From Fimbriimonadales bacterium (GTDB lineage: Bacteria; Armatimonadota; Fimbriimonadia; Fimbriimonadales; GBS-DC), in contig AP024673.1 in NCBI GenBank assembly GCA_025998675.1, positions 2,922,562-2,986,561 on the forward strand: a stretch of DNA of 64,000 nucleotides, written 5' to 3'. The position numbers were made by a program, and so were the translations under genes. Shown here piece by piece: positions 10,627-42,507 of the stretch. The notes beneath the pieces are model-generated. The model made no database searches, was not told the origin of the DNA, and saw only the letters and a list, made by a program, of their open reading frames with translations. The stretch's first letter is position 1. Every line of letters starts with the position of its first letter.

Positions 10627-11424
10627 ATGGGTATTATGCGACGAAGCGGTTTCACCCTGATCGAGTTGCTGGTCGTGATTGCGATCATCGCGATTCTCGC
10701 GGCGATTCTGTTCCCTGTGTTTGCGCAGGCGCGTGAGAAGGCGCGACAGACCCAGTGTACGAACAACATGAAGCAGAACGCGCTCGCCGTGTTGCAGTAT
10801 GTGCAGGACTACGACGAGCGGTTCCCGATGAGCATCTACCTGACCGCGCAGAACAACCAGGCATGTATTTTCACCCTGTACAACGCCATCTACCCGTATG
10901 TGAAGAACTCCGATGTGGTGACCTGTCCATCGGATCGTCAGGCGTTCGACCTTGTGGGGAGCTTTGGTTCGTTCGGCGTGCCCGTGTGCGCCATCCCCAA
11001 TTTCCGCTACACGGGTTATATCTTCAACTGGTGCGTTTTTGAAGATGGGGTCGTGCCCGGACTACTGGCGGGCAATCCTGTGGTCTCGCTGGCGCAGATT
11101 GAGTATCCTGTGGAGACCTCGATGCTGTACGACGGCACGCTGGGACCGCCGCCTACGATTCAGTCGTATCTGCAGGCGCGTCATAATGGTCTGGCGGGCG
11201 CGAACTTCGTGGATGGGCACGCGCGCACGGTCAAAGGGCGCGTGCGCGAGGGCGCGGGCAGCACGGCGACCACCTGGGACGGCAAGCAGGCGCGCGTCTT
11301 CGATGTCGGCGAGGTCGGTCCCTACCAGGGGCAATATAACCTGTGGGGCGTCGCGGCGCGACGCGCGAATGGCACGCCCTGCCGCAACTGTCCGAACCGC
11401 AACAATCCGGGCAACTGCAACTAA
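10627..11424 (+). CDS. Prepilin-like H-X9-DG (DUF1559-type) protein, copy 2
   Basis: 265-residue paralogue of the proteins at 6954 and 17733. [18 protein letters not shown] starts at about residue 7, followed by the same [16 protein letters not shown] block; the middle differs. The C-terminal motif is [16 protein letters not shown] (H-X9-DG). It ends in a Cys-rich tail ([13 protein letters not shown]). Two ATG codons are possible (10627 and 10636); neither has a good Shine-Dalgarno, and a TATAAA sequence lies about 40 nt upstream. It sits between alaS and glpX with no operon logic, as usual for this family. A repeat element and a strong terminator follow. Confidence 0.85.
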
Positions 11425-11429
11425 GCGCC

Positions 11430-11566
11430 TTTGCGCGACAATTGCAGCATGCCGATGAAACTCCGTCTGTATGGAGTGCGGAAGCGGAGCTTCCGCGACG
11501 CTGAAGCTCACGCTTCAGCACTCCAAATCATGCGTCTGTGTGCACGCGCGGATAGAAGGGCTATCG
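11430..11566 (+). repeat. Three-way-junction repeat element, copy 1
   Basis: Core 11472-11525: outer stem TGGAGT/ACTCCA encloses hairpin 1 (11478-11496, GCGGAAGC-GGA-GCTTCCGC) and hairpin 2 (11500-11519, GCTGAAGC-TCAC-GCTTCAGC). The left flank (TTTGCGCGACAATTGCAGC) and right flank (GCGGATAGAAGGGCTATCG) align with those of copy 2 with similar spacing. The copy starts 5 nt after the stop of the prepilin gene. Confidence 0.75.
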
Positions 11567-11594
11567 AAAACTTACTGCAACTGCAGCTAATTCT

Positions 11595-12668: not shown

Positions 12669-12672
12669 GCTA

Positions 12673-12803
12673 TTTGCGTTAGAAGCGCAGCATGTGTATG
12701 AGACATCGTCTCTATGGAGTGCGGAAGCGGAGCTTCCGCATGCTGAAGCTGACGCTTCAGCACTCCATAAGGACGCACCGGTGCGGATAGAGGGACTAAC
12801 GCA
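12673..12803 (+). repeat. Three-way-junction repeat element, copy 2 (best preserved, with terminal inverted repeats)
   Basis: Ends in matching inverted repeats TGCGTTAG (12675-12682) and CTAACGCA (12796-12803). Core 12714-12768: outer stem ATGGAGT/ACTCCAT, hairpin 1 (12721-12739) and hairpin 2 (12742-12761). The flanks add a left hairpin GAGAC-ATC-GTCTC and a right palindrome CGCACCGGTGCG. About 129 bp in all. It lies between glpX and the MoxR gene. Confidence 0.78.
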
Positions 12804-12875
12804 GTCTACCCGCGCGTGGGGTAGAATGATTCCGCGTGCGCGACTGAGGCGCACGCGCCGAATGAGGCGTCAGGC

Positions 12876-25847: not shown

Positions 25848-25888
25848 AAGCGAGCAACACCTTGCTAAGTGCTGTTACAGAAAGTTTC

Positions 25889-26019
25889 CGCTGCCCTACT
25901 GTCCACGCAGGCGCGTAATTTGGGAGTGCTGAAGCGGGAGCTTCAGCATGCGCGGAAGCTCCGCTTCCGCACTCCATAAAAAATGGCGAATCGCACACAT
26001 GCCGCGTTTCTAACGCAAA
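25889..26019 (-). repeat. Three-way-junction repeat element, copy 3 (inverted)
   Basis: Same element in opposite orientation. Hairpins at 25928-25947 (GCTGAAGC-GGGA-GCTTCAGC) and 25952-25970 (GCGGAAGC-TCC-GCTTCCGC) lie inside the outer stem GGAGT/ACTCC (25923-25927, 25971-25975). The flank on the right, read inverted, is TTTGCGTTAGAAACGCGGC, nearly identical to copy 2. A small hairpin ACGC-GCCT-GCGT replaces CGCACCGGTGCG of copy 2. The ~300-bp gap from 25848 holds this element and the rpoB promoter only. Confidence 0.75.
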
Positions 26020-26083
26020 GACACTTATTGCGGACGGGCTTCTACGCAGCCGGTTCCGCGCGTGATTGTTCGTGCGAACCCCC

Positions 26084-42302: not shown

Positions 42303-42382
42303 TAATATCAGCGTGTAGTCAGCGTTCGCTAATTGCCTCGCACATGCCTGCGGAGGCGTGCATTCGCCCGCGCCCTGCTACT

Positions 42383-42416
42383 GTGGAGTGCGGAAGCGGG
42401 AGCTTCCGCATTCCAT
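42383..42416 (+). repeat. Degenerate copy of the three-way-junction repeat (one hairpin only)
   Basis: TGGAGT, then hairpin GCGGAAGC-GGGA-GCTTCCGC (42390-42409), then ATTCCA. Hairpin 2 is missing, as if precisely deleted. The flanks are only weakly similar to other copies. It sits between the HPt gene and the fliJ-like gene. Confidence 0.6.
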
Positions 42417-42507
42417 AAACCGCCGCTTTGCGAACTATGAACCGCCGATGGGTAGAACACGCCACCATGCAGAGAATCGCGCCGCCTGCCGATACTCACG
42501 GGTAGAG

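Follow-up and report, generated by a model that had tools for sequence, protein, structure and literature searches.

GGAG-tagged REPINs in an Armatimonadota genome lie mostly inside MITEs and are most likely moved by a single cognate RAYT

The window, a stretch of 64,000 nucleotides, belongs to a 2.99 Mb, single-contig genome of Armatimonadota (G000), and contains three copies and a degenerate fourth copy of a repeat, every one of them between called genes, as the preliminary description had reported. Copy 1 (11422..11589, plus strand) is a full-length unit of 168 bp with TA at either end, which contains a core of two inverted, GGAG-tagged REPs at 11473..11524 (plus strand), and its bases 1–3, TAA, serve the upstream N_methyl/DUF1559 gene as its stop codon. 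Copy 2 (12672..12805, plus strand; core at 12716..12766, plus strand) lies in the gap between glpX and a gene for a MoxR-type AAA ATPase. Copy 3 (25866..26027, minus strand; core at 25923..25975, minus strand) is a full-length, inverted unit of 162 bp upstream of rpoB. The three belong to one type of MITE, referred to as type A, whose ends are TAAGTGYCTTTGC / GCAAAGRCACTTA.

For copies 1 and 3, the extents first proposed proved too short, as type A terminal repeats bound both units at the coordinates given above. For copy 2, the terminal repeat TGCGTTAG/CTAACGCA is present as described, but it covers the inner portion only of what is usually a TAAGTGYCTTTGCG... repeat, the outermost bases having been lost on both sides. 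Copy 4 (approximately 42306..42456, minus strand) carries one collapsed REP, the lone palindrome GGAGTGCGGAAGCGGGAGCTTCCGCATTCC at 42385..42414 (no strand assigned). Its kinship with the other copies holds through the core, but it is not the same element: it is a separate, degenerate MITE of a second type, type B, which has the core alone in common with type A. The orthologous positions in G008 (Armatimonadetes bacterium HOT.MAX.079) lack copies 1 and 2; the empty site for copy 1 was found at locus L206, and the site of copy 2 is empty in the remaining members of the genus as well.

The conserved part of the repeat spans 51–53 bp and consists of two tagged hairpins in inverted orientation, GGAGT-GC(G/T)GAAGC..GCTTC(C/A)GC, which makes it a REPIN. 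It is laid out as GGAGTGCGGAAGCGGAGCTTCCGC, a linker of 2–5 bp, and GCTGAAGC..GCTTCAGCACTCC, with GGAG preceding each hairpin on its own strand. The stems are perfect short palindromes of 8–9 bp, placed directly 3' of the tag with a gap of 0–1 nt. The element is dispersed, as had been claimed: the tag-plus-stem 12-mer GGAGTGCNGAAG has 269 exact matches in the whole G000 genome (137 + 132 on the two strands), compared with 0 + 1 for the reversed control, and the family amounts to well over a hundred copies. In a sample of about 320 kb, made up of stretches picked around known copies (search matches), 91 doublets with a spacing of 2–5 bp were found, as against 30 single or collapsed units, and 80 of the 91 doublets combine one G-type with one T-type REP. 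Inverted doublets that can fold into a hairpin thus predominate in the family. The 58-nt core of copy 2, folded as single-stranded DNA, reached z = -9.2 relative to shuffles, and the three-way junction proposed for the whole of copy 2 was recovered as a single-stranded DNA fold far below its shuffles (z = -8.3). The REPIN would most likely be recognised in this folded single-stranded form.

The published definition of a REP demands a 5' GT[AG]G tetranucleotide (PMC3686654, PMC6006769), so that the GGAG tag, which is seen in G000, in G008 and at related RAYT loci in place of GT[AG]G, makes these REPs a variant. No empty site of a REPIN alone with exact ends was obtained; the mobile unit would be bounded by GGAG..CTCC, possibly plus the flanking TAT/ATA.

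The window encodes no transposase, as had been noted, but the genome does encode one elsewhere, and the earlier pointer to a RAYT-like enzyme was borne out. A Pfam Y1_Tnp (PF01797) profile search of G000 gave two matches, one of which is a RAYT, a 181-aa protein at G000:C1:1509173-1509715, outside the window. It scored 100.9 bits against the NCBIfam equivalog REP_Tyr_transpos (NF047646; cut-off 80), exceeded the cut-off of PF01797 too, and matched the solved TnpA-REP chain 4er8 with E = 2.6e-8. G000 and its closest RAYT-bearing relative, G008, yield one RAYT match each, and both genes are flanked by REPs: the G000 gene has the REP of the dispersed family on either side, and the G008 gene lies between two arrays, each of four REPs, the downstream one inverted. 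The second Y1_Tnp match (G000:C1:1525060) is not taken to be the cognate transposase, as it falls under the RAYT cut-off and has no REP in the 3.3 kb around it. The protein encoded there (L099:1378-2145; G000:C1 at about 1524.9–1525.7 kb) has 256 aa, with an IS200-type Y1 domain and a C-terminal part resembling sigma-70 region 4, no REP beside it, and may be a domesticated Y1 protein.

Within the 13-genome genus, the repeat is expanded only in G000 (269 matches) and G008 (187), the other 11 genomes showing at most one pattern match per strand, and a close RAYT was found only in the same two genomes, where the proteins are 71% identical. This co-occurrence, together with the association of the gene with its REPs, suggests that the RAYT probably spreads the REPIN family; as a Y1/HuH transposase, it would cleave and copy the REPIN.

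Among 12 RAYT loci at 40% identity or more, nine carry GGAG-tagged perfect hairpins, which in seven cases stand on both sides with opposite orientations. At two others imperfect hairpins were made out by eye, and L110 is without any. At the nine GGAG-bearing loci the tag is constant while the hairpin letters vary from genome to genome. A weak GGAG hairpin was seen at one of 16 more distant or fragmentary RAYT homologues. By eye, GGAGT-tagged hairpins were also found bordering RAYT relatives of a Deltaproteobacterium and a Kerfeldbacterium. The Kerfeldbacteria RAYT (L190) is bordered by several GGAGTAGAGACTTTAGTCTC-like hairpins, and the GGAG tag thus extends to the candidate phyla radiation.

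Most REPINs of G000 lie within a larger unit of 130–170 bp, the surrounding MITE. For type A, 38 units with both ends were recovered, including copy 3, which together with copy 1 makes 39. The empty, intact site at G008 locus L216 reads GATGGCGTCT-TA-GTCGC with a single TA, whereas the element at G000 1517102 is enclosed as TA...TA, and therefore the insertion of type A duplicates a TA target. These results bear out the MITE-like reading of the preliminary description, as both terminal inverted repeats and a TA duplication are present. Bacterial MITEs of the IS630/Tc1-mariner type are 150–170 bp long, with terminal inverted repeats, a TA duplication and no coding capacity. Type A resembles them in all these features and differs in that it carries a REPIN and in that neither an autonomous partner nor a DDE_3 transposase was found in the three genomes G000, G008 and G016. 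Since DDE_3 had no match in these genomes, which thus yielded no related transposase with matching ends, and no pair of ends in G000 is spaced like that of a longer, autonomous element, we do not file type A as IS630-derived. The MITE would be an independent, non-autonomous DNA transposon, moved by a putative transposase, that enters and duplicates TA and, inserting on its own, carries the REPIN along.

The type B MITE, with ends near TATACCAATCTGC..GGTCATAGTTCG, houses other REPINs, including the degenerate copy of the window. At L144:658-900, a type B MITE begins at the TA that closes a type A MITE, and type B may also target TA. At L131, L135, L138 and L142, MITEs with a type A end contain, instead of the REPIN, other palindromic interiors resembling GGGAGAGGGG...GGGTGAGGG.

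It might be supposed that the copies spread only as type A and type B MITEs, the RAYT being irrelevant today and the REPIN a passive cargo kept alike by purifying selection or gene conversion. Most doublets do lie within A or B arms in a consistent orientation. In addition, G016, which belongs to another genus and has no close RAYT, contains A and B copies with the core, indicating that MITE-borne spread without a RAYT occurs. The few such MITEs read there (L182, L184) have near-identical REPIN cores, which suggests that the composite of MITE and REPIN moved horizontally. However, the contexts in G008 are different: most REPINs read there lie in another palindromic repeat, CCCTCACCCC...GGGTGAGGG, which is neither A nor B, and the MITEs with type A ends that were read there have no REPIN. 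Moreover, 16 oriented doublets of G000 lack a recognised arm of either type, although some of these may have decayed A arms, and the RAYT is itself bordered by REP arrays.

The contrast between core and arms also argues against passive carriage. Over 30 aligned type A units, identity is 96.2% in the core and 77.5% and 74.8% in the two arms, that is, 96% as against about 76%. The copies had first been found via the core, a choice that favours conserved cores; of 40 type A units gathered by their ends alone, 35 contain a REPIN and five do not, and only a few are degraded. Three doublets are chimeras, with a type A arm on one side and a type B arm on the other, joined at the core, and linker variants are common to A, B and unembedded cores. 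REPIN cores would thus be exchanged or homogenised between the A and B contexts, and their homogeneity would have arisen either by repeated REPIN insertion or replacement at one point or by conversion; the data fit both. Taken with the G008 contexts, the doublets without recognised arms and the REP arrays at the RAYT, the contrast of core and arms makes spread as MITE cargo alone unlikely.

The preliminary description had read the arms as changing together between copies, and had seen in this a sign of selection for RNA structure. Over the 30 aligned copies this reading fails: each arm helix shows 0–4 two-sided changes, a level equal or close to that of the permutation and slide controls, and the core helices hardly vary, so that the covariation of a structured RNA family was not seen. 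Selection of the fold, in a structured non-coding RNA or in a cis-regulatory element, would agree with the very stable predicted fold of copy 2 and with the intergenic position of 99 of the 121 sampled copies. Conversely, an Rfam scan matched no family and a tRNA scan returned nothing, the REPINs in tandem gene contexts run with the genes in 20 cases and against them in 21 (p = 1), copies are missing from orthologous sites in the sister species, and outside G000 and G008 the genomes of the genus have at most one pattern match per strand. Selection for an RNA is therefore not supported, and we regard such an RNA or element as very improbable.

The nearness to stop codons that had been described is real, and stronger than stated. 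In the sample, 13 type A ends, as at copy 1, coincide exactly with a called gene's stop codon, and any other offset occurs at most twice, these and the other gene-based counts being approximate because genes were called with a simple codon-usage script. The type A ends read TAA, and at G000 1517102 both convergent neighbours take their stop from the ends of the element. When an element with TAA ends inserts at the TA within a stop codon, the protein stays unchanged, and the closeness to stop codons thus follows from TA-target insertion without a regulatory role. This bears on the proposal that the repeats are transcription terminators or attenuators, for which hairpins beside stop codons, and 26 of 93 placed copies between convergent genes, could be cited. 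That share (28%) is close to the 23% that gap lengths in the window would predict, however, and the hairpins are not followed by a T-tract. With the stop codons otherwise accounted for, a terminator role has hardly any likelihood.

These results indicate that the repeats are selfish DNA, a variant of the known REPIN, rather than a novel regulatory RNA. The whole explanation, in which each copy is a REPIN, mostly inside a type A or type B MITE, and is most likely moved by one cognate RAYT, is in our judgement very likely correct. A broader proposal is plausible, though we hold it with somewhat less than even confidence: that a GGAG-guided branch of RAYT/REP systems exists across several phyla, and that its REPINs preferentially settle in the middle of unrelated MITEs and make these centres uniform; a single composite element would thus serve two transposition systems, which would recombine their arms at the REPIN.

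REPINs with a RAYT are an established kind (PMC3116915, PMC8049555). The G000 family resembles the REPINs and RAYTs of Pseudomonas fluorescens SBW25 (PMC3116915) and the BIMEs and TnpA-REP of E. coli (PMC8266576) in its inverted pair of tagged hairpins, its intergenic position and high copy number, and in the single RAYT gene bordered by cognate REPs. It differs from them in its tag, which is GGAG and not GT[AG]G, in the location of most REPINs within MITEs, and in its host, a member of Armatimonadota. REP dimers regularly embedded in longer palindromes are described for A. variabilis, T. roseum and H. neapolitanus (PMC3733652); the passage concerned presents the hosts as target palindromes and gives no evidence of their mobility, whereas G000 houses its REP pairs in MITEs of two families, for one of which an empty site shows the TA duplication, and also in chimeras joined at the core. 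A literature search covering few subscription journals found no papers on GGAG-tagged REPs or RAYTs in Armatimonadetes. Within the literature searched, and as far as shown here, what is new is the GGAG tag common to a RAYT group, the occurrence in Armatimonadota, and the union of REPINs with TA-target MITEs in one composite.

RAYT/REPIN systems are thereby extended to Armatimonadota with a different guide tag. The retention of GGAG by related RAYTs while the hairpins diverge provides a natural test of tag-directed RAYT cleavage, and the contrast of core and arms in the MITEs offers a clean setting in which to ask whether REPINs spread by insertion, conversion or hitch-hiking. The rebuilding of stop codons by TAA-ended MITEs shows why such repeats hug genes without a regulatory role.

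At one gene junction (L154 and G000:C1:1269512), a REPIN is present in both G000 and G008, the sole common site seen, which suggests an old, retained insertion.
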